The notes beneath the pieces were generated by a model. It was not told the origin of the DNA. It was given only the letters and a program-made list of their open reading frames with translations, and made no database searches. From positions 1 through 64,000 of the forward strand of contig JAACJM010000279.1 in the NCBI GenBank assembly GCA_013368315.1: a DNA stretch of 64,000 nucleotides. Reading direction: 5' to 3'. Origin of the DNA: Tetrapyrgos nigripes. Its lineage: Eukaryota; Basidiomycota; Agaricomycetes; Agaricales; Campanellaceae. The position numbers were made by a program, and so were the translations under genes. Every line of letters starts with the position of its first letter. Position 1 is the stretch's first letter. Positions 9,845 to 45,601 of the stretch are shown piece after piece.

Positions 9845-9939
9845 GTTTGGAGTGGGATGAGATAAGCCAACCCATCCCTGTACCCGCCGACCCCATACCT
9901 GTGACCCGTCACTTACCCACAAACCCATGCTATTCCCTA
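9845..9939 (-). repeat. Fragment of the terminal sequence of the 15-kb element family
   Basis: The reverse complement begins TAGGGAATAGCATGGGTT, continues with GTAAGTGACGGGTC and ends near GCTTATCTCATCCC, matching the left end of the large insertion at 26572-26655. Only one end is present, so this is a truncated copy. It shows that the terminus is repeated in the genome. Confidence 0.75.
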
Positions 9940-10887: not shown

Positions 10888-11372
10888 TGTCATGAATCCC
10901 TTCATGCCTTCGCTTCTAGACCCTGTTCTTTGTTCTCCTTTCATCATTCTTCTCCCTTCCATCATTCTTTGCTTCTTTGGTTCTAGATCATGTTCCTTGT
11001 ACCTATGGCTTCCATCTTCTTTGATGCATCATCTCTCTGATTGACAGATCATATCTGTACCTGTTACACATATTGACATCACTTAGATACCTGATTATCA
11101 TTCCTTGATTGTTTCCATCAGTACCTGCTGATCTAATCTTGTTCTCCTTCGCACTTTTGTATATATACTCCAGGGCTTTGTAGATAGTTCCTCAGTCTGT
11201 CCACTTCTGTCCCTCTGATCCATACTGCTCAGCATTGTCCTCAGTACTATGTAGACTCTGGCCCAGTACTGGCTTACTCATGTATACCATCTATTTGCCT
11301 TATTGCTTCGTCTTTGGTTCCTGTGTGGTGGCCTGAGAGGCATCCAGTCCCTATCTGAACCTGTTCTTGACA
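10888..11372 (+). mobile_element. Solo LTR, family D, 485 bp, inside the GH3 relic
   Basis: Begins TGTCATGAATCCC and ends CCTGTTCTTGACA, i.e. TGTCA...TGACA. Perfect 5-bp TSD GTGAC at 10883-10887 and 11373-11377. Removing it with one TSD restores the GH3 frame (FADYVT joined to ALPMALMAAS). A second copy lies inverted at 45058-45596. No internal retrotransposon region remains, so LTR-LTR recombination is the likely origin. Confidence 0.9.
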
Positions 11373-25945: not shown

Positions 25946-26571
25946 ATGCTCTCTGACCACACTATTTCTACTTCACAGACTCCTAACATGAAGAAACTCC
26001 ATACGTCAGGGTTGCCACCACGGCTGCCTCCCGAGCTAACCGACCGCGTTATCGACTGTGTCGACGCCCAAAGATCAACCAGCTCACCATCATTGAAGGA
26101 TAAGAAGCTCATGTCGACATTGAAATCTTGCTCGTTGGTCCGCAAATCTTGGTTGCCCAGGGCACGAAATCACATCTTCCGCCGTTTGATTATCGAGCCT
26201 AGGATCGAGGAGACGGCCATCCTGAAGAGTGACGATGAGGAAAGTGCGTGAAAGCGTTTTTGGAGAGATTGCAGTTCATCTTAGTAGGACCGGGGGCCGT
26301 TTCTGAAGACGAAGACTCGTGCTATGATTCTCACTCCCTCAAAGACCAGATCTACTCGGAAGCAGCACTCGAGCATCGGACCACTGTCACGGCCACTGAC
26401 GTCGCCAATCGCAATTCTCGTTTCCGTCTATCTACAGCCATTCTCCCACTCGTTCAAACTCTTGTAATCAACGCTGGCTATTGGGGTCACGGTAAAGACG
26501 CTCTGAGAATGGCGTATAACAATACCTTCTTCCGTTGCCTACCGTTCACGTCACTGGAAGCTCTTTACATT
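25946..26571 (+). pseudogene. F-box-type protein, 5' part (split by a 15-kb insertion)
   Basis: N-terminal F-box-like segment LPPRLPPELTDRVIDCVDAQ, then LKSCSLVRKSWLPRARNHIF, typical of agaric F-box/LRR proteins that recruit substrates to SCF ubiquitin ligases. Near 26246 the frame shifts by one base: the continuation (KAFLERLQFILVG, later LPLVQTLVINAGYWG) is in the next frame. Reading stops at 26572-26574, where TAG is formed by the first bases of the inserted element. The gene resumes in frame at 41801. Start could be at 25946 or the internal ATG at about 25988. Confidence 0.8.
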
Positions 26572-26775
26572 TAGGGAATAGCACGGGTTGGCGAGTAAGT
26601 GACGGGTCGCGGGGACGGGGTATGGCGGCGACGGGGACGGGGTTGCTTATCTCATCCCCTATGCTGTTCAATTTGCACTTTGATTATTTGTACCCGCACA
26701 CATCCGAAATTTTCCGCACTCATAGTCGAAATCCCCGCACTCATTCAGGTTTCCCGCACTCTCAATGTCTAAGTT
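26572..26775 (+). repeat. Left terminal region of the 15-kb element
   Basis: TIR, then a G-rich stretch (ACGGGGACGGGG), CTATGCTGTTCAATTTGCAC, and four spaced CCGCACT motifs up to 26765. The ATGCTGTTC motif is an internal near-copy of the terminal GCTGTTCCCTA in inverted sense, so the first about 100 bp are themselves quasi-palindromic. Confidence 0.8.
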
Positions 26776-26837
26776 GTTATTTTTTTCATAAAACTTAAGA
26801 CATTTTTCTCTGTACTGACTTACGTGTCTCTATTCCC

Positions 26838-27222
26838 ATTTGTAGGAGTGGAATATCTAGCATAACACAGAACGAGGACGATGGAAACTGGACGCAAGAC
26901 CTTTTAACGCGACGCGTCAGGGTCACGCGCAGGTAACATGACTCAAAAGTTTCATGGGACTCATGGTGATCCTTCGGCACTCTTTGCCACGTCGTGTTGT
27001 CTTTACTACCACCACCAGCCCAGCGTGTACCAGACGTGCTCAAGCCTTTTCCCTGATGTGCAGCCACAGAAATCCGCTTTTTATTGCTCTCTCTATCTTT
27101 TCCTCTTCGCAATAGTCCGGTTCAGACAAGCTAATGTTCACGCGTCTGTGTAGCAGGAATGGGGTGTGTGCGCTTCAGGCAGTGTATTAGTGCAAGGCGG
27201 TCCAGAATATGGTGAGTTACTA
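26838..27222 (+). repeat. Long inverted repeat, left arm
   Basis: Starts ATTTGTAGGAGTGGAATATC and ends CCAGAATATGGTGAGTT. Its inverted partner is 28998-29370; about 85-90% identical by eye with a few indels. Together they bracket 27223-28997, which contains the truncated copy of the 495-aa gene. Confidence 0.85.
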
Positions 27223-27484
27223 TGTTTGCTGCATCTTCTCAACCTTTCTGATGTGTTAGTAGTTTCCAGCATGTCGTTCTCGAGCAAGAGCCAAAAGCTG
27301 TACATGGTATGAGCTTCTACATCACACATGCTCAGTATCTCTGCTGATGATACATCTGGAACTTCTGTCTTAGATCTTGGTATGGCTTATTACGAAGGGA
27401 CTTCGAGGTGGACAGGGCTGGATGGGATTCTTATAGAATAGCTACAAATTTTGTGCATATTATTGCAGATAGATGCAGAAATAT

Positions 27485-27604
27485 ATGCTGTTCAAATTGC
27501 ACTTTTATTATTTACCCGCACGCTCGATATCTTTCCCCGCACTCACGGACTTTTCCCGCACACAGTGACCTACTTTCCCCGCACACTCTCGAAAACTTTG
27601 AGGA
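27485..27604 (+). repeat. Internal copy of the CCCGCAC subterminal repeat
   Basis: ATATGCTGTTCAAATTGCAC followed by spaced CCCGCAC motifs. It abuts exactly the point (27604/27605) where the truncated inverted gene copy stops matching the intact copy. Confidence 0.75.
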
Positions 27605-28999
27605 AGCCAATTGTAAAGATGACATGGCACTGGAATGAGCAGATGGTGCATGTACATGGGAATCCGATGACAGCGCCAAAGAGCGACCTGCTGATCCAGA
27701 GGCATGCACTGAGCGGCTTGATTTCATGCTGCGTGTCATGGCTGTGAGCAGTCAAGTCAATGAAAACTTCTCATCAACAAAGATTAGAGAGTTAACACGT
27801 ACATCTTGTTATTCTTAGACTGTCACCATCATCTCCGTCATTGTCCCTGCTGTTACCTTCATCACCCTCATCATCGGCTTCAGAACTACCTCTGTCATCC
27901 TCTCCGGAATCATGTGAGTCGTCCCCTGCTATATAATTGGAGTCGTCATCGCCATCATCATCATCAGGGCTGGAACTATGATTAACAGCTTTGCCTTTGC
28001 CTTTGCCCTTCGGCCTGGGACTAGATGGTTCAACCATGTATGAGTAAGGATTAGGATCAAGGCCAGTGATCCATGCGGTAATCAGGTCATCAGGTACAGT
28101 TGCAACGGAAGCTATGCAACAGTTAGATCTGGAATACAAACAAAACAACAGAGACAAACCAAAAACAAGGGCGTTCTCTCCCCAGGGGCTGTTGCGCTTC
28201 GAACCACAGTTAATTTTGATGACCTTCCCATTGGGAAAAAGACCAGAGAGACCGGGAACAAGCGTCATACGGCGATCGTCCTTCACACAGAGTACAACAG
28301 GCAAGCACCTGACCTGGACTCGAGGGTGAACGCCGGGTTGATGAAATGGATTGTCAACACGTTCGTGTGCGTTGAAGAAATGAAAGGGACGTGGGAGTTT
28401 GGTTTCAAGAGGTGTATCGTTCTCGCTGATATAATAGCCCTCCTCGAAGTCTGTTGCAGCCAAGCCCTTGGCTTCGAGTTCATGTATCTTGACCATTGTG
28501 AGCCCAGTGACGGGTTCTTCCAGCTCAAAGAAGGGAAACGACTATAGAATTGAAGATCAGTATGTTCAGATAATAGTAAAAAACTCTTGCTCACCTCGAT
28601 CTGTTTGATACCACAGGGAAGCACTGCAAGAGCACCAACGCGGAGGCCCTGCAAAAGATAAATGAAAAGAAAGACAAATACTGGTGATGATGTACCTTTC
28701 CTGATGGGCAAGCTTGATTCTTGTCAACAGGGACGACAGCCTTCACCTTGCCAGAGTCACGTGTCTTGGACTTCAGGCCCTGGTTAGCTTCTTCGCTGGC
28801 ATCTTTCAACAACGACAACGGCAGATTGGGTAGGTATTTCTTGGATTTGTGTGATTTGGGGGTTCGACTTTCTGAGATGTGTCGGATGTTGGTCATTACT
28901 TTGCCCAGCTCGACATCAACGTCATGGTTGGCCTTGCCAGATCCCTTGGTTTTGGTACGTTTTGGGCAGCGGTTTTCAGGCTCAGAATCATCGTCGGAT
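27605..28999 (-). pseudogene. Truncated inverted copy of the 495-aa element gene
   Basis: Near-identical to 39320-40703 on the opposite strand, by eye roughly 99%, with about five amino-acid differences including Thr/Met and Arg/Gly changes. It lacks the first about 12 codons (boundary at 28999, where the long inverted repeat begins) and everything after QLASS (boundary at 27604, where a CCCGCAC repeat begins). Introns are retained, so it arose by DNA duplication, not by retroposition. It cannot encode the full protein. Confidence 0.88.
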
Positions 29000-29370
29000 T
29001 AACTCACCATATTCTGGACCGCCTTACACTAATACACTGCCTGAAGTGCATACACCCCATTCCTGCTACTACACAGACACGTGAACGTTAGCTTGTCTGA
29101 ACCGGATTATTGCAAAGAGCTAAGGATAAAGAGAGCGAAAAAAAGGGGATTTCTGTCGCTGCACATCGGGGAACAAGCTTGAGCATGTCTGGTACATGCT
29201 GGGCTGGTGCTAGTAGTAAAGACAACACGACGTGCCGGAGGTGTCGGCATGAATCACATGAAATTTTGAGTCATGTTACCTACACGTGACCATGACGTGT
29301 CGCGTTAAAAGTCTTGCATCCAGTTTGCATCGTCCTCGTTCTGTGTTATGCTAGATATTCCACTCCTACA
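28998..29370 (-). repeat. Long inverted repeat, right arm
   Basis: Reverse complement of 26838-27222 (reads AACTCACCATATTCTGGACC at its start on + and ends CCACTCCTACAAAT). See the left arm. No clean TSD could be found outside the two arms. Confidence 0.85.
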
Positions 29371-29540
29371 AATGTATGCAGTTCAATTTGCACTTTTATT
29401 ATTTGTACCCGCACACACTTGATATCTCCCGCACTCAATTCCTCGATTCCTCGCACTCAATATCCCCACTTCCCACACTCACTTAAGGTTACCCGCACTC
29501 ATTCAGGGTTATCCGCACTCACAGAGCCTTTTTAGTCTTA
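29371..29540 (+). repeat. Internal copy of the CCCGCACTC subterminal repeat
   Basis: TATGCAGTTCAATTTGCACT, TTATTATTTGTACCCGCACA, then seven or so CGCACTC/CCACACTC motifs to 29520. Same orientation as the left end of the element, so it may mark an older left terminus that was separated by the inverted-repeat insertion. Confidence 0.75.
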
Positions 29541-29874
29541 TATATATTATATGTGGAATTTCAATAGATTCATTTGTAGGAAATACAGATATTCATTTTT
29601 AATTGATCGAGGCTTGAATAATGAATCAGAATTATTTATTGATTCTCAAGATGGCTAATCACTGAATAGAGCAAACTTATTTAACAAGCTTCATCACTTG
29701 TTCCCCAAGAATGGTGTGCATATTCTAAATACTACTGTGTACATTGATCAAGATGATATGAAACTAGGAGTATTCTTAGAGAATAAGAAGAAAGTATACA
29801 GCTTGTTGAATATACTGTATCACAACTACTAGGTAGATTAAAACATAGAAAGAAAATGCATTCATCAGTAAGAC

Positions 29875-31014
29875 CTAAGTAGATCCAGGAAGATGAACTG
29901 GTACATCAAACTCTTCAATATTCATATGACAAGTCACCAGATATTTCCTAACAGAATCTACAGCTGCTGCAATAATCCTTTCCTGAAAATCTAAATGCCC
30001 ACCATTCTTTACTTCTGTAATATATTTAAACTTACAACTCACATTCATCTCTACACCTCCTGGCTCTCCTCTACTTGCAGCTGCAACAACACTGGCAATC
30101 TCTGAGAGTGGAAGAGGGTTCCTAGGATGAAGGAGTCTTCTCGCAACAGTTCCCCACCAGATATTGATCCAGATAGGATGGCAAACTTCGTCATGTGTCT
30201 TCGCATCACAGTATTCGCTAGGATCAACCTTCACAATTGACTGGGTAAGGTTGATCCTTTCTTGAAGGAGAGTGACGTGAGCAGCCGAAATGATATGAAC
30301 AACTGTACTTGACAACTCGGAAAGGCTTTCAGGTTGTCCAATCGATTTTACTGGTCCATCCAAAACTAATTCGGACACAGCAGAACCAATCCAATCAGCA
30401 TCAAATATCAGGTAGCAGTGACTGAGCGCAAGTTTGGAAATGGAGGAAAGGGGAGGTTTAACCAATTTGAGTTGATTGATTGCCCATCTTCCACATGACT
30501 GGATCATAAGGTAACGAGAAGCCTCAATGATGTCAATGAGTCTCGATGGGGAATTATCTGGATCTTCATAATTTTTGTATGGTCTGTAACACACATTTTG
30601 TGAGCTATGTGAGTAGCAGCACACTCTAAATAAACGTACGGTTTCCAAATCCATGAAAGCACTCCTGCAAATCCATCTGCAGTCAAGCCTGAGATGACAA
30701 TAGGATTTGAGCGAGACCCTTCATCTCCTTCTTTTTCTGGATAGGGGATCCTTTGTTGCTGTGACTGTCCTGCAGTAGTGTCTTGGGTCGCAGAAGTGGT
30801 ATCCACTGTGATGGGGCGCTGTTTGAAGCTCATAAGCCCTCTGATCATATCAGAGTGCAAGATTAGGAGACCAACAGGCGTTCGAAAAAGGACATTCTCA
30901 ACCTAAAAAAAAGTGTTACTGCATGTCCAATACATAAGAAACCTGGTTACATACAGAGAACACCAGCATTTTCCCCTCGTCGTGAAAATAAAATGTTGGA
31001 TGTTCCTGGGCCAT
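29875..31014 (-). CDS. BTB/POZ-domain protein, 343 aa
   Basis: BTB proteins are dimerising adaptors, often for cullin-3 ubiquitin ligases; agarics have large families. Three exons on minus: 31014-30955, 30902-30640 and 30583-29875, separated by introns of 52 and 56 nt with correct GT-AG borders and compatible phases. Start at 31014 (MAQEHPTFYFHDEGKMLVFS), then VENVLFRTPVGLLILHSDMI, a Gln/Ser-rich insert, NPIVISGLTADGFAGVLSWI, and ASRYLMIQSCGRWAINQL, matching the usual agaric BTB layout (phase-in strand, short acidic loop, E-D-F-x-x-L segment, helical tail). The frame is intact, unlike most genes nearby. It sits inside the 15-kb element between repeats and the integrase gene, so it is either cargo or part of an inserted host segment. 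Confidence 0.75.
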
Positions 31015-33214
31015 TGTGAAGGTAAGGGCACTGGGGTTGGGACGACTTACTCAGTCTTACTGAAGTGTCAGTATATTGGAACTGCTGACTGCTATCTATA
31101 GATCTATTCGTGACTGATCGCTCCAAGGACACATTGAATAGAAGCTTTTCATCTGACTGAGCGATTTTTGCTACAGGTGCTAAGAAGGCACGTGTGATGG
31201 GAACATGTCAGCCTCCAATGCGATGGCTAGAATCCCTTAAGATTTGAATGATGGAGTGAAAGTGCATACGGCCCATGGCACATCACTGATGCATTGCCAC
31301 AATCAGATACAGAGAAGCAGTCAAACTTAGTATATTCATATCTATCAACTCCTATCTGTAGCCTGGCCTATATTTCGTTCCTCCTAGTGTTGCTTTACTA
31401 CTTTTTATAGGCTCTAAGTACAGAGAGCCCAAAATTAATGGTGTTCCTTTGTGCAGCCATCCATCACTTGATATACACCCTTGATCATCATGGTCCCTGA
31501 TCTTTCTTTGATTTCTGGGATCATTCATATTCATCAACAGTCTCTTGATCAACAGATTTTCCATTGACTATTTTGCTTGATGGGAGTACTTATAAGTCAA
31601 GAGTAAGAATTCTTGTTGCATATTCCACATTCTTCTCCCTTATCGCGCAATGTCCACTGACTACCTGCCACCATTACCACCGCCTTCTGTATGTGGTATC
31701 ACCTCTTGGCCACCCAACATCATTGAAGCTGCGTGAATTCTGTCACATAACTATAGCTCTGCTCTGCTTGCAGTCAAAACTGATGCGGATTCACAGAGGA
31801 TTACTTTCCACATTGAGAACATCTGTGATCTGTCGTTGCCACTGCTTCTTGCCTTTGAGACCACTGTGCAGGATTATCCTGGTCTGAAACCTTGGTTGAC
31901 AAAGACTGCCAAACAATTTGCAGATTTGTACAATATCCTTTCAAATATTGCTGAAAACCAGACCAATAGGTATGTTACAGTTTCTATTCAGCAAAGGAAA
32001 AATTACAGTTTTTATGAAGAGATCGTTGAGTCATTTTTCCTCAAGCTGTCAAATCAGAACGGTCAGGGAAGCCAGGCCACCCGCGGAAGGTCCCAGATCG
32101 AGACATCCTCATGGAAGCTTTTGCAACCCACAGAAAAATTAGCCAGGTTGAGTTGGCTTCAGCTCTGGGGATACATCAAAATACGCTGTCGAGGTATCTC
32201 AAAAAGTATCATATTACAGCTGGGTACAGTGCAATCTCAGATGAAGATCTTGACGAGCTGGTTCGGCAATACCGGGCTGAAAAGCCTCAAGCAGGGGTTC
32301 ACTATCTGCGGGGTCATCTTCGTGCTCAACATGGCCTTTGTGTGCAGAAGATGCGTATAGCACAATCAATACACCGTGTTGACCCGCTAGGAAGTATATT
32401 ACGAGATTATACCACAGTTAAACGCCGGCAGTATCGCATCACTCATCCCAATTCTCTATGGCACATTGATGGTCATCATAAACTTATCCGTTGGGGCATT
32501 GTGATTCATGGAATTATTGACGGTTTTTGCCATACAGTAAGTTACACAGTGAATTGGTTTCTACTTTGCTAAACTACCTTTCTTAGGTTATAGGTTTACG
32601 AGCCAGTACCAATAACACTGCATCAACGGTGCTTGACTTATTCGATAGTGCTGTAAAGGTTTATGGATTGCCTTCTCGAGTTAGAGGTGATAGAGGTGGT
32701 GAGAATAAGAAAGTCGCTGTTCGTATGATTTCGAAACAGGGTCTTAACAGAGGAAGTTTCCTATGAGGAAAGTGAGTACACTGAATTTAGTAAAATAATT
32801 ATTCTGGTTGACATATTTTAATAGATCAACTCGAAATAGCAGAATCGAGCAGTTGTGGGTTGAGGTTGGGGGACAGTTTGTTCGCATGTGGAGGGCATTC
32901 TTCAACCGCCTAGAAGAGCTGCATGGATTTGATCCCAACAACAAAGCACATCTGTGGCTGCTGCACCATACTTTTTTAGGTGCCATCAATGAGGACTGTG
33001 ACAGATTTTGTCAGGATTGGAATAATCATCCAATATCAGGTAAAGGTCATGATAAAAGCCCAGAGGTGAGTAGCCTATGATTATTCAATACTGACCTACT
33101 ATCTTACTTTGTTCAGGAGCTGCGGTTTTTAGGAAATCTTAAAGAAGGAGTATATGATGACTACAAAGAGATGGAGGCTATGATGATCCAGAGATACTAT
33201 GGAGCAGACCAGGG

Positions 33215-33448
33215 TATTAGACTTAGGTTATCTTAGCGAATAGTCTTAGTGAAAGTCACAAAGTGGGGGTAAGAGCGTGCAAACGTATCTCGCTTGACTC
33301 TCAAGTATATATCATTAATCAGAGTAGTATAACAATATAAATAGTCTAAGTATATCCGTATGATCATTTGACCGTATGTCCGCAGTACCTGATTGATGCC
33401 GTATGCATAATAGCTTAGTAACTTGATCGTTATCATTAAATTCCAACA
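33215..33448 (-). repeat. 3' LTR of the Copia element (234 bp)
   Basis: Identical to the other LTR except for one G in a G-run and one G/T difference (CGAATAG versus CTAATAG). Confidence 0.95.
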
Positions 33449-33455
33449 CTCCCCT

Positions 33456-36400
33456 TCAAGCGGATATCCCTAGTAATCGGGAGAAACGCTTGATCTTATC
33501 AGCGGAGAGAGCTTTCGTAAGTATATCCGCAAGTTGATCATTAGTTGACACATGTTTAACTCGTATGTATTGTTGATGTATCCGATCAGTAAGGAAGTTT
33601 TTACGGATATTGAAATGTTTAGTTCTCTGAGTATGTTGTTCTTCAGGAGCACGTATAATTGCCAAAGTAGATGCACTATCTGAGTTGATAAGTACTGGCT
33701 CCTGTTCGGTATTTAGAATTTCTTCTATAAAACCTTTCAAATAAATAGCTTCTTGTGAGGCATGAGTGAGTGCGCATAGTTCAGCCTCAGTAACTGATAA
33801 AGTTACCAGTGTGCCTCGCTTACTTGACCAAGAAATAAGCGATTCAGCAAATTTGAATGCATAGCCCATGATTGGTTTATTGCCATACGTGGACATACCA
33901 TCAGAGTCGGCAAATCCATAAGTAGAAGTAATAGTAGGGCTCCCTAGGTTGAGCCAGTAATCGCAAGTTCCTTTTAGATAAAGATAGCATTGTTTAGCTG
34001 CAGCGTAATGCTCTTCACCTGGATCATTAAGGTATCTTGCTAGTTGACCAGTACAATATGCAATGTCTGGCCTAGTACAGTCAGCGACATATCGTAAACC
34101 ACCGACTAGTGACATATAGTGTTTAATAGCAGCGGCGTCCCGTTGCGGTTCGCTCCCAGGTCTAGGGCTAAGATTTTGCCCGGGTAGCATAGGTGTACGG
34201 CGTGTATGTAATTGGTCAAAATTGTATCGTTTGAGAATATTCTCAATGTAATGTTTCTGACGGAGTTTAATAGTATGATTATTCCTATCTCGTTGAATTT
34301 CCATACCGAGAATCCAGTGGATTTCTCCACCGTCAGTGACTTGGACGTGTCCACTAAGTGCAGTAACAAAAGCTTGCGCAGTAGCTTTGTTGATAGTACA
34401 TAAAGTAATGTCATCAATGTGACAAGATAGTATTAAAATGAGTTTATTCTCATGATATCGGTAAAATACCGCATTATCGTAAGTAGACTTCTTAAGTCCT
34501 AGTAGCTTTATGAGAATATTGCATAATTTTTCATACCATCGACGACCAGCTTGTTTCAACCCATATAGAGTCTTTCTGAGTTTAAGTACGTAGCCTTCAG
34601 GTAAGTTAGGTAGTAAATTACCCGGAGGTGGACGAAGGTATAATGTTTCCTCGTCAGTAATGTTTCCGTAAAGATAGGCAGATTTAATATCAATCTGAGT
34701 AGTTTCATAGTCTAATGAAGCTGCAAGAGCAAGTATAAAACGTGTACTGCTCATGCGTGCTACAGGGGCAAAGATATCATTTGCGTAGTAATCAATGCCT
34801 TCTTGTTGACTAAAGCCTTGTGCTACTAGTCTAGATTTCAATTTGGTTTGTTTGCCAAGTTCATACTTAGTTTTGTAGACAAATCTGGAACCAATGATAT
34901 TCGCATCAGCAGGAGGTTTGACGTATTCCCAGGTTCCTAGACTTTCTAGAGATTCTATCTCAGCTTTCATGGAATCAAACCATGCATCACGTTGTGGATG
35001 ATTGAGTACATCCTTGAATGAAATTGGATCGCCAACGTTATCAGCATAGTAAACATTGAATTCTGTTAAGAAGAAAGCAATGTTTTGTTCAACTTCATCG
35101 TAGAGTAAACCTCTGGCTTCTTGGATCCTTTTTGATCGTCTTGGGCCATCAGGTTGTTTAGTTTCGTCTTCGTCAACATCCATTGGTTCAGGTTCGTGTT
35201 CCTGAGAAGTTGGAGTTTCAGTTGTATTTTCTTCTGTAGTTTCTAATGGTTCTTGATTTTTGTTTTGTAACTCCCCTTCAACTTGCGATTTGGACGTTAA
35301 GAATTGCAAGTTGCGTTCTACATTCACTTTAGTACCAAAGTAGACATAATGGCCTTTTGAATGATCGTCAAAGCCTAACCAAACTCCACGTTTTCCTTTA
35401 GCAGTTAGTTTACTAGTTCTTGCTTCGTCATATACAATGCAAGGTGTACCAAAGCTATGTAGATTGTCTAAGTTTGCGTTAACACCGTAACGTTTAAAAT
35501 AGGGAGTTTGCATTTTTAATGCAGTTTTCGGAGATCTATTAAGTATGTACATAGTATAAAGTCCTGCATGCCACCATAAACGATTAGGTAGTTTTCCAGT
35601 ATGCAGATTAACACGAATACCATTCATGATATGTTGATGTATGTTTTCAGCAACTCCGTTTTGCTGAGGCGTGTCATGAACTGTATAACGTGCAATTGTA
35701 CCTTGTGCTTTCAGGTAGTTTTTGAATGCACCCGAAGTAAATACGGCATCGTTGTCTGATTGTAGAATTTTAACTTTGATACCATATTGCGTAAATAGTT
35801 CAGTAGTAAATGTAACCCATTGGGTATAGGCTTCGTCTTTTGTTTTAAGTGGAGATAATATTAACCAACGCGTACAGTCGTCGACGATGGTTAACCAGTA
35901 TTTGTAGCCTTCAATAGAGGCAGTTCGTAATGGACCAAATATATCAATATGAAAATGGTCTCCGAAGTTTTCTGCTAATTCTGAAGTACGTTGTTTCGGA
36001 ACAGAAAGTCTGTGTATATTATTGATGATGCAGTCTTCGCATTGAGTTTCTGTCCAATCATCAATAATGATTGTAATAATAGATTTATCTGTTTTTAGTA
36101 ATGTTTTTAGATTTGTATAACTCATATGACCAATTTGTTTGTGAAGTTCGTATAAACTTAAAGTAGCAACGTTATCACTCAATTTTTTAGTTGTGATGGA
36201 GTAAAGTTTGGCGCTCTCGTGTATAACGCCAATGAAATTGTCCTTGTCATTACGTATTATACATAAATGATCATGAAAAGTAAAAGTATAGTCCGCTTTT
36301 TGTGAAATACTGATTAAAGTAAACGGAAGTTTTGAGTTATAGTATACATTTTTAAGAGTGATCGATGAAGACTCACCATTGTCCTTCCTAATTTCTACCT

Positions 36401-37922
36401 GCATATCGCCTGCTAATCGAAGATCTAGATGCTCTGAATTGGCAACAGTTAAAGTTATGGCAGGCGTAGTATGAACGTTAAAAAGTAAGTTAAGATACGG
36501 TGTACAGTGTATAGTAGCACCAGAATCAATGATATGCGTATGATCTTGGTCAGAGATCGCGGTAAAAGCAGGTAGGGAAATATGATGACTCACTGGAGTC
36601 TCTGAGTCTTCCATCTCAACGTCGCCCGAAGAAATCGACTGTACCCAGTCCGATTGCAAAGTTGACGTAGTCGCAATTTGAGAAGAAGAAGACGCAGGCA
36701 TGGAGATGGCAACTGATGCATTCTCCTTGGTCTTGCCTTTGTTGGATTGTTTAGTAATCCCTTTCTTCTTCATAGCTTCTTTGGACTTTTCAGTCCAAGG
36801 TTCTGGGCACGTCAGGGTCGTATGACCCATCTTGTTGCAGTTGAAGCACTTCCGATCCTTTTTGACATCAGAAGGCTTCTGGAACGGCGCTGCGGCGTTA
36901 GCGCGTTCCCCTTTTGACTTGTCCGATCGTTGAGTACCGCCTTGACTAGTGCTACCGGACTTCTTGTCGGACTTCTTCGAAGGATACGTTCGAGCATTGC
37001 TCAAACGATAGTTAGTGAATTCCTTCTTTAGCCGCGCAATGAGGTCGACGGCTCTGTATACGGGTTTCTCCCCTTCAGCTGCAGTAGTGGCATCCCATGT
37101 AGCTGCAGCTGCATCCACAGTTGCTTCGTAAGAACTGCGAACAAAGTGATAGTGTGGAGGAATAATCCCCACTAGAGCTGAGTAAAAGACTTGATCTGAG
37201 ACATCTATGTCTCTCTTCTTGATAGAAGCCCACAGATCCTGAGCTTCGTCGAGGAGCTTATCAAACTCCCAGACTGGTTTACGTAAGTTGAAGAGTTTCC
37301 ACAGCTCGTTAGACTCTTGAACTGTGGATGAAGGGTCGAAACGTTGCTTGAGCTTGTTGATAAGCTTGATCGCATCCGACTCTTCGATGTAGTGGATCAT
37401 GATTTTATCATCAATCTTGCCTGTAATAGCGTTAAAACAGGCTAGTTTGACAGTATTACCAGGATGTAACCCGGAACTTTTAAAGTGTTGGTGACGAATC
37501 ACCCGTATAGCATTATTAACGCGGAAGTACCACATCTTCCAATTCTCACTGCCAGTAAGAACTGTCAGGGAATCAAAAGCTTTGTTGATGTCGCTGAGCG
37601 GCATCACGTAGTTGGGGTTTGTGTTTTCGGGCACAGATAATGCGACCGACGAAGTAGAGGTAGATGGAGGAGATGATGGTGAAGTAGGGGCAGTATCCCG
37701 GACATCAGTCCTAGTATTTTCGCCAGCATCAGACATAATGGGATCAAGTGGGAATGGAAGAGGGTTTTGGAAGAGAGGATCAAGTGGTTGTGCTTGCGAA
37801 GTGGATGATACGGGCGGAGTAGGAGTTTGGGTACCAGAGGGGTGTGCACTAGAGTGGCGACTAGTAGTAGGAAGTGGGATATCTGGGGCTGATCCTTGAG
37901 ATCGAGTTTGTCGACTAGTCAT
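33456..37922 (-). CDS. gag-pol: Copia gag-pol polyprotein, 1488 aa
   Basis: Single open frame. Gag with zinc knuckle CFNCNKMGHTTLTC (about residue 357); aspartic protease IIDSGATIHCT (about 464); integrase HHCC region (HKQIGHMSYTNL...CEDC, about 590-625) and DDE core (FHIDIFGP about 657, LQSDNDAVF about 720, QQNGVAEN about 755); reverse transcriptase from about 1010 (IIGSRFVYKTKY, TQIDIKSAYLYG) with HIDDI at about 1170 where YVDD is usual; RNase H (DSDGMSTYGNKP, SVTEAELCAL) at the C-terminus. The order PR-INT-RT-RH defines Ty1/Copia. No stop codon or frameshift, so the element may be competent or only recently silenced. Confidence 0.97.
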   Translation of the reverse strand: MTSRQTRSQGSAPDIPLPTTSRHSSAHPSGTQTPTPPVSSTSQAQPLDPLFQNPLPFPLDPIMSDAGENTRTDVRDTAPTSPSSPPSTSTSSVALSVPENTNPNYVMPLSDINKAFDSLTVLTGSENWKMWYFRVNNAIRVIRHQHFKSSGLHPGNTVKLACFNAITGKIDDKIMIHYIEESDAIKLINKLKQRFDPSSTVQESNELWKLFNLRKPVWEFDKLLDEAQDLWASIKKRDIDVSDQVFYSALVGIIPPHYHFVRSSYEATVDAAAATWDATTAAEGEKPVYRAVDLIARLKKEFTNYRLSNARTYPSKKSDKKSGSTSQGGTQRSDKSKGERANAAAPFQKPSDVKKDRKCFNCNKMGHTTLTCPEPWTEKSKEAMKKKGITKQSNKGKTKENASVAISMPASSSSQIATTSTLQSDWVQSISSGDVEMEDSETPVSHHISLPAFTAISDQDHTHIIDSGATIHCTPYLNLLFNVHTTPAITLTVANSEHLDLRLAGDMQVEIRKDNGESSSITLKNVYYNSKLPFTLISISQKADYTFTFHDHLCIIRNDKDNFIGVIHESAKLYSITTKKLSDNVATLSLYELHKQIGHMSYTNLKTLLKTDKSIITIIIDDWTETQCEDCIINNIHRLSVPKQRTSELAENFGDHFHIDIFGPLRTASIEGYKYWLTIVDDCTRWLILSPLKTKDEAYTQWVTFTTELFTQYGIKVKILQSDNDAVFTSGAFKNYLKAQGTIARYTVHDTPQQNGVAENIHQHIMNGIRVNLHTGKLPNRLWWHAGLYTMYILNRSPKTALKMQTPYFKRYGVNANLDNLHSFGTPCIVYDEARTSKLTAKGKRGVWLGFDDHSKGHYVYFGTKVNVERNLQFLTSKSQVEGELQNKNQEPLETTEENTTETPTSQEHEPEPMDVDEDETKQPDGPRRSKRIQEARGLLYDEVEQNIAFFLTEFNVYYADNVGDPISFKDVLNHPQRDAWFDSMKAEIESLESLGTWEYVKPPADANIIGSRFVYKTKYELGKQTKLKSRLVAQGFSQQEGIDYYANDIFAPVARMSSTRFILALAASLDYETTQIDIKSAYLYGNITDEETLYLRPPPGNLLPNLPEGYVLKLRKTLYGLKQAGRRWYEKLCNILIKLLGLKKSTYDNAVFYRYHENKLILILSCHIDDITLCTINKATAQAFVTALSGHVQVTDGGEIHWILGMEIQRDRNNHTIKLRQKHYIENILKRYNFDQLHTRRTPMLPGQNLSPRPGSEPQRDAAAIKHYMSLVGGLRYVADCTRPDIAYCTGQLARYLNDPGEEHYAAAKQCYLYLKGTCDYWLNLGSPTITSTYGFADSDGMSTYGNKPIMGYAFKFAESLISWSSKRGTLVTLSVTEAELCALTHASQEAIYLKGFIEEILNTEQEPVLINSDSASTLAIIRAPEEQHTQRTKHFNIRKNFLTDRIHQQYIRVKHVSTNDQLADILTKALSADKIKRFSRLLGISA

Positions 37923-38015
37923 ATACTAGTCCAAGAACAGAGTACGAGTAGAGAGTAAAGCAGAGTAGAACAAGTGTTTATCGGAGTTATAGCAAGCTAG
38001 GCGGGGCCCATAACC

Positions 38016-38250
38016 TATTAGACTTAGGTTATCTTAGCTAATAGTCTTAGTGAAAGTCACAAAGTGGGGGGTAAGAGCGTGCAAACGTATCTCGCTTGAC
38101 TCTCAAGTATATATCATTAATCAGAGTAGTATAACAATATAAATAGTCTAAGTATATCCGTATGATCATTTGACCGTATGTCCGCAGTACCTGATTGATG
38201 CCGTATGCATAATAGCTTAGTAACTTGATCGTTATCATTAAATTCCAACA
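38016..38250 (-). repeat. 5' LTR of the Copia element (235 bp)
   Basis: Promoter LTR in element orientation. Directly inside it (minus strand) is GGTTATGGGCCCCGCC, in the primer-binding-site position; I did not assign the tRNA. Confidence 0.92.
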
Positions 38251-38703
38251 CAGGGGAATGAGACAGAAAGTGATAGTGAAGGCGAACAGAGTGACTCTGA
38301 GGATGATGAGTCAAGTATAGCTGATTCTGATGGCAGCGATATTGAGGATCAGCTCTACAATGACGAATTTGAAGATGAATCTGATGATGAGGAATTGGGA
38401 CAACTCAAAGGTGAGCTATATGGTTCCCTGATACCATTTCTGGTTTACATTGAGATGTATGCAGATGGCATAGCTGAAGGTATCACTTCACAATTTCATC
38501 ATGCCCCAGTCGCAGTTCCAAAACATTCTGATCCCTTTGAAACTACATCACAAAAGACTGTGTTTCATCAAGCACTAGCAACTTGTGTATGTGAAAATAT
38601 ATTTCCTGCAGGCTATAACATCAAGGAGGATGAATGGGATGAACATGGGTATCCTGCAGTGGAAATTCTGCGATCAGGGCGCAAAGGAGCTAAAGAGCTA
38701 TGA

Positions 38704-39278
38704 GTACCCCTACCAAAAAATATTTGGCTACCTCGAGCACAATTTTGGGTTCAGGCTTTAGTATGTATGCAGGAGACCTTATATTCTGGAAAAAAATAGT
38801 AAATAATGATGTATCTCTCGCTTGGAGGAAACCCAACGTTAATCAAGTCGCAATTCTCCTATCCATAATTCAGGAGGTCACCCTTTTACTTCATGTATTA
38901 CTGGGTTCAAAAATAACTGGCAAATTCGCTGTCCCCGACTCCGACCGAAGGGAGGAGAGGGACTGTCCAACCGAGTGGAGCTGCCACCTCTGCCGAAGGG
39001 AGTTTGAATCTGATGGAGATCTCCAGATGATCTTCAAAACGTTCTCTGTAACAATATTTGTATACGTAACATACCAACAATAAATCTACATCTGACTATA
39101 ACTATACTGCCTGGAGTCAGGGAGTGGCGCACCTGTGCGCCGTTTAGATAGATGGCAAAAATGCGTGACTCATGTGAAACTGGGGGTTGAAATAGCGGAG
39201 TTTGAATCTCAACTCTTTTTCCATCACCTTCCATCACCTTCGTTCTACTCTATACCCACACTCTTTTTACCCAATTCC
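38704..39278. other. Spacer inside the 15-kb element
   Basis: No gene. Probably 3' UTR of the integrase gene and promoter of the 495-aa gene. A short palindromic GTGGCGCACCTGTGCGCC lies at 39123-39140. Confidence 0.4.
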
Positions 39279-40924
39279 ATGAAGCGTATCCATAGAAGGC
39301 CCGATCAATCCGATGATGATTCTGAGCCTGAAAACCGCTGCCCAAAACGTACCAAAACCAAGGGATCTGGCAAGGCCAACCATGACGTTGATGTCGAGCT
39401 GGGCAAAGTAATGACCAACATCCGACACATCTCAGAAAGTCAAACCCCCAAATCACGCAAATCCAAGAAATACCTACCCAATCTGCCGTTGTCGTTGTTG
39501 AAAGATGCCAGCGAAGAAGCTAACCAGGGCCTGAAGTCCAAGACGCGTGACTCTGGCAAGGTGAAGGCTGTCGTCCCTGTTGACAAGAATCAAGCTTGCC
39601 CATCAGGAAAGGTACATCATCAGTATTTGTCTTTCTTTTCATTTATCTTTTGCAGGGCCTCCACGTTGGTGCTCTTGCAGTGCTTCCCTGTGGTATCAAA
39701 CAGATCGAGGTGAGCAAGAGTTTTTTACTATTATCTGAACATACTGATCTTCAATTCTATAGTCGTTTCCCTTCTTTGAGCTGGAAGAACCCGTCACTGG
39801 GCTCACAATGGTCAAGATACATGAACTCGAAGCCAAGGGCTTGGCTGCAACAGACTTCGAGGAGGGCTATTATATCAGCGAGAACGATACACCTCTTGAA
39901 ACCAAACTCCCACGTCCCTTTCATTTCTTCAACGCACACGAACGTGTTGACAATCCATTTCATCAACCCGGCGTTCACCCTCGAGTCCAGGTCAGGTGCT
40001 TGCCTGTTGTACTCTGTGTGAAGGACGATCGCCGTATGATGCTTGTTCCCGGTCTCTCTGGTCTTTTTCCCAATGGGAAGGTCATCAAAATTAACTGTGG
40101 TTCGAAGCGCAACAGCCCCTGGGGAGAGAACGCCCTTGTTTTTGGTTTGTCTCTGTTGTTTTGTTTGTATTCCAGATCTAACTGTTGCATAGCTTCCGTT
40201 GCAACTGTACCTGATGACCTGATTACCGCATGGATCACTGGCCTTGATCCTAATCCTTACTCATACATGGTTGAACCATCTAGTCCCAGGCCGAAGGGCA
40301 AAGGCAAAGGCAAAGCTGTTAATCATAGTTCCAGCCCTGATGATGATGATGGTGATGACGACTCCAATTATATAGCAGGGGACGACTCACATGATTCTGG
40401 AGAGGATGACGGAGGTAGTTCTGAAGCCGATGATGAGGGTGATGAAGGTAACAGCAGGGACAATGACGGAGATGATGGTGACAGTCTAAGAATAACAAGA
40501 TGTACGTGTTAACTCTCTAATCTTTGTTGATGAGAAGTTTTCATTGACTTGACTGCTCACAGCCATGACACGCAGCATGAAATCAAGCCGCTCAGTGCAT
40601 GCCTCTGGATCAGCAGGTCGCTCTTTGGCGCTGTCATCGGATTCCCATGTACATGCACCATCTGCTCATTCCAGTGCCATGTCATCTTTACAATTGGCTT
40701 CCTCCTCGTCTTCAGGTCCATCAGTTGCTCCAACCATTGATCAAGAGCCTATCATAATCAGTGATAATGAGTCTTGTCCTGATATTTATGATTCTACTCC
40801 ATCTCCCAAGCCTACAGTCTCCTACTTCACTCGTCGACTTGCAAATGACTTTCAGAATGACACGACTCTTGAGGAGACCAACATCTTCTCATCCGCTCCT
40901 CATAACTTCTCATTCAGCTTCTAG
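39279..40924 (+). CDS. Intact 495-aa element-borne protein of unknown function
   Basis: Four exons with good GT-AG borders: 39279-39611, 39656-39709, 39763-40501 and 40563-40924, total 1,488 nt including TAG. The N-terminus is basic (KRIHRRPDQS, CPKRTKTKGSGKA), suggesting nuclear or nucleic-acid binding. The central part (FPFFELEEPVTGLTMVKIHE, RPFHFFNAHERVDNPFHQPG) looks globular. It is followed by a basic patch (PKGKGKGKAV), a long acidic Asp/Ser/Glu tract and a Ser-rich tail. I do not recognise the family. It is the complete version of the truncated inverted copy at 27605-28999. Intactness inside an element full of broken genes suggests recent activity or selection. Confidence 0.75.
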
Positions 40925-41399
40925 TTTTATACTGACTATACATTTCTTGCTTTATCTTCGTCACCTCACTTTATACCCGCTGCTCCCATACGTTACTACT
41001 GGCCACTCTCATCATTACACACTATCTCCACCCGACGTTTACTTCGCATTTTCACGCATGATGTTTCATATCTTTTCTGACGCTCAGCTACACTACACTT
41101 ACAACACATTCCTTACATGACCCTTACATTACATTGGTTTGACTGACGTTCTCTACACTCATTTTCATTCATGCACACGACATTTCATGGGCTCAGCCAC
41201 ACTACACTAACACTATGCTCACTTAATTTTTACCGTTACATTCCTTTGATGGACCTTCTATACACTCGCTTTCAGGGACGATACTCAGTATTTTCTGCAC
41301 AGATGATCTTGCATATCTATACGGACACACGCTCAGCTACACAGATTTATTTATTTAGTTACTTATTTGCAGAGAGGGATTCTTGGTTCAGATAGAGTG
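40925..41399. other. Spacer, AT/TC-rich
   Basis: Downstream of the 495-aa gene. The words CTACACT, ACATTC and GCTCAGCTACAC recur several times at 41085-41340, a degenerate internal duplication. No gene. Confidence 0.4.
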
Positions 41400-41792
41400 C
41401 CGAATTGAAGATCACACTTCAATCTTTTTGTGAAAGATGGTCGATAGTGTGAACAGTCAGCCTTTGGGTGCGGATGAAGATCTCCCGGTGAGTGCAGATT
41501 GACTTTACATCAGTGCGGGAAGGAACTACTGTGAGTGCGGGAAGAAACTACTGTGAGTGTGGGAAGGAACTACTGGGAGTGCGGGGAGAAACTACTGTAA
41601 GTGCGGGAAGAAACTATTGCAAGTGCGGGGGAAAATATGGTAAGTACGGGGAATAATAAAAGTGCAAATTGAACAGCATAGGGTTTTGCCTCAGACCAGT
41701 CTGCCCCATTGTTACCCTTGACCCGTGAGGGTGGAGACGGGTTTCGATGGGGACAGGGATGGGTCAGAATTTTTTCCCCATGCTGTTCCCTA
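41400..41792 (-). repeat. Right terminal region of the 15-kb element
   Basis: Inverted relative to the left end: about nine spaced AGTGCGGG (CCCGCACT) motifs at 41470-41640, AGTGCAAATTGAACAGCATA, a G-rich stretch, and the terminus CATGCTGTTCCCTA. Direct repeats here follow a unit like GAGTGCGGGAAGAAACTACT. Confidence 0.82.
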
Positions 41793-41800
41793 TTTACATT

Positions 41801-43063
41801 GACCTGGAGGACATTGATATTGATCCTACTACCGTCGATGGCCTGACAGAGTATCTCGGAAGGAATCAGATGCTCGAATCCTTCTCGCTGCGTGGTGACA
41901 TGCAGTCTTCCAAAGTTGTCCTTGGATTTTTTCAGCCTTTGTATCAACTTGATCGATTTTGCACGCTTTCTCTGGGTGTTTCGTTCGAGGAAGACTTGAG
42001 TCAAGCTTTCCCCGTCTCTGAAGCTGACTATCAGGAGGGACATGGTAGCCCTAATGGTATCAGTCTTCCCACCGACCCCAGTCATTGGTTCCCAGGCCAG
42101 GTCCTAATTCTGCATGACCTGGACACCCTAAACTTGTTCTCCAATGCTCGTTACTTTGATTTATCCACAACATGACTAGAGGTGCATACATGTCCTTCAG
42201 ATGTGGATCACCTAGAGCTCCTAAATAGGTGCGCAGACCATGTCTCTATTTTGACTATTGATCCCTCATCTTGTGAGCTTATCCTCCTCCTCCTCCTCCA
42301 TTGAAAGCTGTCATTCATTGCGTTTTATCCCATGCACAGTGCTCGGCCCCAATGAACATCAAGATTTGGCCGAAGTCGACTTTTCACCTTTGCATTTGTT
42401 GCGTTTCAAAAAGCTAGAAAGCCTCAACTTCAAAGGGCTACAGTTTGACGATTATATGGGTGTCCAGCAGGGACATTTGATTCGTTCGATTTTGTGGGGA
42501 TTTGGATTTTTGGAAGCTTCTGACTCATCTAGTTCTTCTGAACAAGTCAACGACACGACGCTGACAGCTGTGCCGGCCCATTCAAGTCTTCACAGTCAGG
42601 ACTCGGACTCGGACTCGTATGCGAACGACTGTCCTAGTCACGGTGGTGATCATGACGGTGTCACTGTCAACCTTTGCTTTCACTTTTGCAATCCCAAGTT
42701 CTACGACTATTACAGCAGAGACAAAGAGTGGTACCAATTTCCCCAACAGGACAAGTATATTGCCAAACTGGATAGGAGGATTGCAGATGCTTTGTCTCGC
42801 ACCCGGCCTCAACGAGGAGGAGGAGGAGTTGGATGAAGCGGCTGAGGATCATATATCAGTACGACATGCACTACATGCTGAGCGAAGTTCCGATTGCGAG
42901 GTTGTGTCATGTCGAGAATTGGTTCTCGAAGATGAGGGAAAGTGGTCGTCAAAGTGGGGTTGAGGTTGTTTTTGAGGGTCTGGAGGACTGGTCTTATGTT
43001 GATCCTGATAAATATCCGGTCACAGTTCTGGAAGCCGGGTATTATGTATCAGACTTGGATTAG
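41801..43063 (+). pseudogene. F-box-type protein, 3' part
   Basis: Continuation of 25946-26571 after the TSD: DLEDIDIDPTTVDGLTEYL, QMLESFSLRGDMQSSKV, NLFSNARYFDLSTT. A TGA at 42173-42175 interrupts the frame, which then continues open (LEVHTCPSDVDHLELL) to a stop after a CTC-repeat at 42281-42300. Sense sequence goes on in another frame (LRFKKLESLNFKGLQFDDYM, 42400) and ends with HVENWFSKMRESGRQSGVEV to YYVSDLD at 43063. The LRR-like Leu spacing fits F-box/LRR proteins. Decayed by at least one stop and two frame changes in addition to the 15-kb insertion. Confidence 0.7.
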
Positions 43064-45057: not shown

Positions 45058-45596
45058 TGTCAAGAACAGGTTCAGATAGGGACTGGATGCCTCTCAGGCC
45101 ACCACACAGGAACCAAAGACGAAGCAATAAGGCAAATAGATGGTATACATGAGTAAGCCAGTACTGGGCCAGAGTCTACATAGTACTGAGGACAATGCTG
45201 AGCAGTATGGATCAGAGGGACAGAAGTGGACAGACTGAGGAACTATCTACAAAGCCCTGGAGTATATATACAAAAGTGCGAAGGAGAACAAGATTAGATC
45301 AGCAGGTACTGATGGAAACAATCAAGGAATGATAATCAGGTATCTAAGTGATGTCAATATGTGTAACAGGTACAGATATGATCTGTCAATCAGAGAAATG
45401 ATGCATCAAAGAAGATGGAAGCCATAGGTACAAGGAACATGATCTAGAACCAAAGAAGCGAAGAATGATGGAAGGGAGAAGAATGATGGAAGGGAGAAGA
45501 ATGATGGAAGGGAGAAGAATGATGGAAGGGAGAAGAATGATGAAAGGAGAACAAAGAACAGGGTCTAGAAGCGAAGGCATGAAGGGATTCATGACA
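45058..45596 (-). mobile_element. Solo LTR, family D, 539 bp, inverted relative to the GH3 copy
   Basis: Reverse complement of the 10888-11372 LTR, with TSD GGTAA at 45053-45057 and 45597-45601. The 54-bp size difference equals three extra units of an 18-bp direct repeat (GAAGAATGATGGAAGGGA, about five units at 45460-45550). Otherwise nearly identical by eye. Confidence 0.93.
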
Positions 45597-45601
45597 GGTA
45601 A

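Follow-up and report, generated by a model that had tools for sequence, protein, structure and literature searches.

According to the accessible parts of the papers cited here, IS3EU/GingerRoot transposons have TA..TA ends, target site duplications (TSDs) usually 6 bp in length and a DDD/E transposase without HHCC (PMC10045372), and IS3EU families of rust fungi carry alpha-kinase and TET/JBP genes between ends of the form TAYGG..CCRTA (PMC12730594). Styx of Zymoseptoria, an element of 7.9 kb with four open reading frames (ORFs), has a DDD/E transposase taken as IS3EU-derived (PMC10853768), and among hAT elements MarorhAT-10 of Marasmius oreades is autonomous at 3.4 kb and has non-autonomous relatives of 597–631 bp which share its terminal inverted repeats (TIRs) (PMC9674265). 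Here we analysed a stretch of 64,000 nucleotides from Tetrapyrgos nigripes (the window; part of contig C274 in the searched genome of 98.5 Mb and 587 contigs), in which a gene is split by a 15.2-kb insert that the initial annotation had proposed as a new type of large cargo-carrying element with hAT-like ends. It is very probable that this insert consists of mobile elements of three kinds nested in one another, namely a hAT element, an IS3EU-like element with two partner genes and a Ty1/copia-like retrotransposon. The apparent giant hAT cargo element would thus be explained by nesting, which makes it a trap for annotation; the interest lies in the three-gene IS3EU-like lineage and in its repeated presence in hAT elements.

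As judged from sequence, the inner element has the traits of an IS3EU-like transposon; two partner genes accompany its transposase, and elements of this kind are found repeatedly in hAT elements. As in IS3EU/GingerRoot, the ends are TA..TA (TATGC..GCATA), the TSDs are of 6 bp (11/21 elsewhere) and the enzyme is of the DDD/E integrase type, with no HHCC-type domain matched. Fungal IS3EU members can, as here, have extra genes, but the rust families, as far as the accessible part of the source goes (PMC12730594), are unlike the present element with its BTB-like gene and third gene, its TATGC..GCATA ends and its dense subterminal repeats. Styx likewise combines a DDD/E transposase with accessory ORFs, whose GATA, CCHC and DUF3577 domains differ from what is seen here (accessible part of PMC10853768). 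The word BTB is absent from the main texts of PMC10045372 and PMC12730594 and from that of the Styx paper (PMC10853768), and our literature searches found neither a BTB-carrying IS3EU-like transposon nor a nested arrangement of hAT and IS3EU elements, what came up for BTB in transposons being a paper on Cryptons.

Results

The insert occupies positions 26572–41792 (15,221 bp) and is bounded by a perfect 8-bp TSD, TTTACATT, the two copies of which are identical at 8/8 positions; its TIRs are TAGGGAATAGCACGGG (26572–26587, + strand) and TAGGGAACAGCATGGG (41777–41792, − strand). The features at its borders are as follows.

25988–26571, + strand: split gene, 5' part (frame comparison with the empty site on C268)
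26564–26571, no strand: 8-bp duplication to the left of the hAT element, TTTACATT (single copy in both empty sites)
26572–26659, no strand: outer hAT left end, 16-bp TIR and GC-rich subterminal part (similarity to hAT-family copies)
41681–41792, no strand: outer hAT right end (similarity to hAT-family copies)
41793–41800, no strand: 8-bp duplication to the right of the hAT element, TTTACATT (single copy in both empty sites)
41793–43063, + strand: split gene, 3' part, end approximate (homologous flanks in C268 and C232)

Using 375 bases of the right flank as a query against the genome, we obtained two other copies of the gene (alleles or duplicates), C268:63278–63652 and C232:84210–84584, each 97% identical over 375 bp, and both of them (2/2) are empty sites with a single TTTACATT, on which the left and right flank matches abut exactly. 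Left flank identity is 98.3% over 355 bp for C268 and 98.4% over 1,501 bp for C232, and right flank identity is 95.3% and 95.4%, respectively, with a single open frame continuing across the junction in C268. The 15,221-bp insertion is real: its hAT-like TIRs and perfect duplication, the in-frame restoration of the flanking gene and the existence of empty sites carrying one TTTACATT, all of which the initial annotation had claimed or predicted, were borne out. The split gene is one which we take to be F-box-like by resemblance; Pfam scans gave no match for the first open frame of its 5' part and nothing above family cut-offs for its 3' part.

Similarity of the insert to the TAGGGAAYAGCAYGGG family, compared at 30 fetched genomic places, is confined to the outermost 88 bases on the left and 112 on the right: the left end is 83–96% identical to the fetched copies over up to 89 bp, where the similarity stops, and the right end 81–92% over up to 102 bp, the exception being a short match on C44 to the insert interior (38931–38974). 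The 16-mer of the TIR has 320 matches genome-wide with at most one mismatch, versus 4 for the reversed pattern, and within the window three matches with at most two mismatches (0.09 expected), the third lying at 9924–9939. Complete members of the family range from 510 to 2,287 bp, the shorter ones being of 510–738 bp, and perfect 8-bp TSDs were found in four of the seven complete elements of the fetched loci (C3 GGCGCAAA, C17 GGCTTATC, the second C44 element AATGAAAT and C19 CTCATCAT). The hAT dimerisation domain PF05699 scores above its cut-off within TIR pairs at C3, C19 and C51 (150 of 336 candidates scored in the genome scan), and a separate C3 exon alone scores 18.2, under the cut-off of 21.4; the evidence for the family's enzyme consists of domain matches. 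Because members of the family have 8-bp TSDs, and some of them hAT domains inside their TIR pairs, the insert has as its shell an ordinary hAT element, of a family common in this genome. The window copy is non-autonomous, and Pfam gave no hAT family match among nine scanned open frames of the insert.

The shorter outer-family members (510–738 bp) are similar in size to the MarorhAT-10 relatives, the comparison being one of length, and a nested IS3EU-like guest, unlike in the window, goes unmentioned for MarorhAT-10 in the accessible part of its description (PMC9674265). A KDZ/Zisupton label for the outer element was considered, Zisupton elements having 8-bp TSDs according to the accessible part of PMC12730594, and was dropped because the outer TIR family contains hAT domains. 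A further hAT-family end is present in the window at 9861–9939 (TIR 9924–9939, − strand), for which the window offers no partner within two mismatches except the insert's own ends.

Inside the hAT ends, at 26660 and 41680, the sequence switches to TATGCTGTTCAATTTGCAC and its complement. The region thus enclosed holds the following features.

26660–26836, + strand: T1, putative IS3EU-like end TATGCTGTTCAATTTGCAC with CCGCAC-bearing subterminal repeats (end-pattern match)
26837–27219, + strand: repeated stretch (34 genome matches, positions compared with inner-end places)
27484–27590, + strand: T2, second end TATGCTGTTCAAATTGCAC with subterminal repeats, oriented as T1 (end-pattern match)
27591–29000, − strand: third gene, inverted truncated copy (99% identical to 39307–40713)
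29000–29374, − strand: Z', inverted copy of block Z (87% identical to Z)
29375–29540, + strand: T3, BTB-side end TATGCAGTTCAATTTGCAC with subterminal repeats (end-pattern match)
29875–30902, − strand: BTB-like gene, open frames 29875–30720 and 30504–30902 (relatives adjoin integrase genes)
31650–33209, + strand: integrase-type DDE transposase, 5' part, its aligned exons interrupted by two stops (PF24764; tblastn with the C232 protein)
33215–38250, − strand: Ty1/copia-like retrotransposon with long terminal repeats (LTRs), TSD CAGGG and the domains RVT_2 and rve
38256–38703, + strand: transposase 3' part, acidic tail (81–87% DNA match over 39–73 bp to other integrase loci)
39279–40924, + strand: third gene, five exons in the model, 479 aa (spliced model; recurs beside the transposase)
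41490–41651, − strand: 22-bp subterminal repeats preceding T4, family D1 (repeat analysis)
41662–41680, − strand: T4, right end of the putative IS3EU-like element (end-pattern match)

Ends of this inner type carry TATGCYGTYC and take the form TATGC..GCATA at T1–T4 and in relatives; in the window, subterminal repeats of 22 bp accompany the right end, and those of the left ends contain CCGCAC. With at most two mismatches the inner end has 121 matches genome-wide, versus 0 for a reversed control, and from the 100 of these places that were listed we chose 21 facing pairs (those on C347, C379 and C246 being among the pairs left out). Exact 6-bp TSDs were found at 11 of the 21, and a twelfth pair (C232, 74922–76602) has a 6-bp duplication with one extra base; the C74 and C512 pairs have identical flanks, so the 21 pairs amount to 20 distinct insertions. 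A second inner end type has 54 matches with at most three mismatches (10 of them exact) versus 8 for the reversed pattern, a noisier control.

The genome protein searches returned 78 matches for the integrase exon, 22 for the BTB-like exon and 25 for the central exon of the third gene, the last of these at 18 loci when the two inverted copies in the window are counted once. The trio is complete and in one gene order at 14 of the 18 loci (C232, C81, C10, C44, C434, C91 at 304 kb, C398, C502, C179, C151, C134, C23, C18 and the window), for which reason the BTB-like and third genes are read as partner genes of the transposase. Of the remaining loci, C120 is without the BTB-like gene, C8 is without the integrase, the second C91 locus has the third gene only, and at C141 the BTB-like match lies about 6 kb away, closer to a different integrase match. 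The whole trio stands between inner-type ends at C18 (316834–324773, TSD GAATTG) and C23 (636033–644178, TSD GTCCCG). Ten copies (C232, C44, C10, C179, C398, C502, C91, C81, C434 and C83) are more than 99% identical across most of the compared sequence, the lowest piece being 98.99% identical (497 bp, C434), and all ten have the same 19-mer as their BTB-side end. The C44 and C81 copies have a common flank and the ten therefore represent at most nine distinct insertions; their near-identity suggests recent activity.

The integrase gene matches PF24764 and helix-turn-helix families in Pfam, and neither the window exons nor protein P0001 matched a zinc-binding integrase domain. In the C232 model the predicted transposase has an uninterrupted frame of 523 aa, in which D258, D315 and E350 form the DD34E triad, and stops are present in other copies, C18 included. 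The third gene, given as an unknown gene of 495 aa in the initial annotation, comes to 479 aa when spliced; its predicted protein is 32% identical to that of C232 (E 2e-36), the four introns lie at matching positions in the two hand-made models, and an AlphaFold structure of it was unusable (pLDDT 36.7). The gene content that had been described stood with regard to the integrase-type gene and the inverted copies of the third gene, and the BTB gene was left without a Pfam match: window exons, the C232 protein and three database relatives were all negative for BTB (E up to 0.1 or 1), and a relative of the protein gave a weak match to the SKP1/BTB fold.

Three side observations concern inner-type elements. 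In the C232 element a tandem array with units of roughly 100–150 bp is seen by eye downstream of the third gene (fetched locus L088, about 950–1650). The inner end ..GAACAGCATA (41662–41680) and the hAT TIR TAGGGAACAGCATGGG have a common 9-mer, GAACAGCAT, despite belonging to different kinds of element. At C21:525638–532953 there is a 7.3-kb element with inner-type ends and a TACGTC duplication, for which the genome protein searches gave no integrase, BTB-like or third-gene match.

At three of the 21 inner-type pairs (C96, C225 and C232) both flanks consist of contiguous sequence of the outer hAT family, the insertions being at three different places within it. As a control, 1 of 400 random 39-mers matched the same hAT set; these were drawn from the window only and hAT targeting is therefore suggestive but unproved. 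Taken together, this suggests that IS3EU-like elements often land in hAT elements, and the insert in the window can be read as a further, degenerate instance, the fourth.

The inner region of the window has three left ends (26660, 27484 and 29375) and one right end (41680), along with block Z and the third gene, each accompanied by an inverted copy; the two copies of the third gene align with 1394 matches, 13 mismatches and 3 gap columns. The integrase gene is interrupted by the 5.0-kb copia-like element, which the initial annotation overlooked, as it did the shortness of the hAT ends (88 and 112 bp), the genes that it listed being present. The LTRs of this retrotransposon (33215–33448 and 38016–38250) align with 233 matches, 1 mismatch and 1 gap column, the TSD CAGGG lies at 33210–33214 and 38251–38255, and the ORF 33456–37925 has RVT_2 and rve above Pfam cut-offs and copia gag under cut-off. 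With RVT_2 and integrase domains, LTRs and a 5-bp TSD it corresponds to Ty1/copia, and no unusual feature was noted. In the tblastn alignment with the C232 protein, two stops fall in aligned exons of the transposase and further ones in likely introns; because of these stops and of the copia split, the inner element of the window can hardly make its own transposase and looks dead.

Discussion

In the proposed history, the first event is the insertion of a hAT-family element in the F-box-like gene, which the 8-bp duplication and the empty sites show; one or more IS3EU-like transposons would then have inserted into that hAT, as is observed at three other loci. A rearrangement may subsequently have removed the middle of the hAT, which would account for the three left ends facing a single right end and for the inverted third-gene copy; the most economical course would be two inner-type insertions at different points of the hAT with loss of the intervening sequence. 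The copia-like retrotransposon split the transposase gene, as its TSD records. The BTB-like and third genes would be accessory genes of the IS3EU-like element, which might regulate the transposase, bind the ends or protect from silencing or degradation. The composite could still be mobilised through its outer ends by a hAT transposase, but no sign of movement as a unit was seen.

Several points weigh against this account. The inner ends of the window are without a 6-bp TSD (ATCCCC before T1, GGGTTT after T4) and the flanks of T2 and T3 are also unmatched, from which it follows that the inner element is rearranged and that a simple inner insertion is not demonstrated at this copy. Elsewhere, 9 of the 21 inner-type pairs are without a TSD, a one-base offset being allowed, and TSDs are absent from three of the seven complete hAT-family elements (C30, C31 and the first on C44, of which the latter two have identical flanks in opposite orientation). 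A search of the fetched locus L088 did not reveal the second end of the C232-family element, the order of events rests on parsimony, the IS3EU label is based on ends, TSD length and enzyme class rather than on a tree, and the BTB identity is weak.

A more far-reaching reading would make the inner element a hyperparasite, that is, a member of a mushroom IS3EU-like clade with an obligate trio (transposase, BTB/SKP1-fold protein and third protein) which prefers insertion into hAT elements, the filled shells being movable in trans so that two transposase systems mobilise one composite. As a joint claim this is rather doubtful.

It is improbable that the composite of 15.2 kb is a cargo-carrying hAT element, non-autonomous but functional, which was assembled elsewhere and moved as a unit into the F-box-like gene by a hAT transposase in trans. 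The outer ends and the 8-bp TSD are intact and the full 15,221 bp is missing from both empty sites, as such movement would have it, but the hAT parts at the two ends measure only 88 and 112 bp, inner-type elements elsewhere are separate insertions in hAT elements with TSDs of their own, and among the TIR places listed (the first of 320) none other was seen by eye to have an inner end about 88 bp inside, the one at C96 lying 158 bp inside the hAT TIR. Members of the hAT family are ordinary and can be short, and what was taken for cargo comes mainly from a second transposon; the three genes recur together between ends of another kind, and the cargo reading of the initial annotation is rejected on that ground.

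A single new autonomous element, the integrase-type enzyme of which would recognise the TAGGG.. ends and make 8-bp duplications, is highly unlikely: the enzyme gene is located between such ends, but at C18 and C23 the same kind of enzyme is enclosed by TATGC..GCATA ends and 6-bp duplications, and TAGGG.. ends elsewhere flank hAT-domain sequences. The unrecognised enzyme that had been envisaged fits the inner element, with its putative DD34E transposase, and not the outer ends. An assembly chimera, which abundant repeats and a locus judged from the assembly and not from reads might favour, is scarcely credible in the face of exact junctions, the 8-bp (hAT) and 5-bp (copia) TSDs and flanks that match intact empty sites.

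The analysis also brings out an IS3EU-like lineage in which two partner genes are conserved, one of them weakly BTB/SKP1-like, and with its ten near-identical copies the part that these genes play in transposition becomes testable.

Other repeats in the window

Two copies of a repeat of about 485–540 bp with TG..CA ends are present at 10888–11372 and 45058–45597, flanked by the 5-bp duplications GTGAC and TTACC, and because of these ends and duplications they are apparently solo LTRs. One of the copies splits a gene that we presume to be GH3-like. The repeat has no match in Rfam and at least 50 matches in the genome, mostly 98–99% identical (40 of 342 candidates scored).

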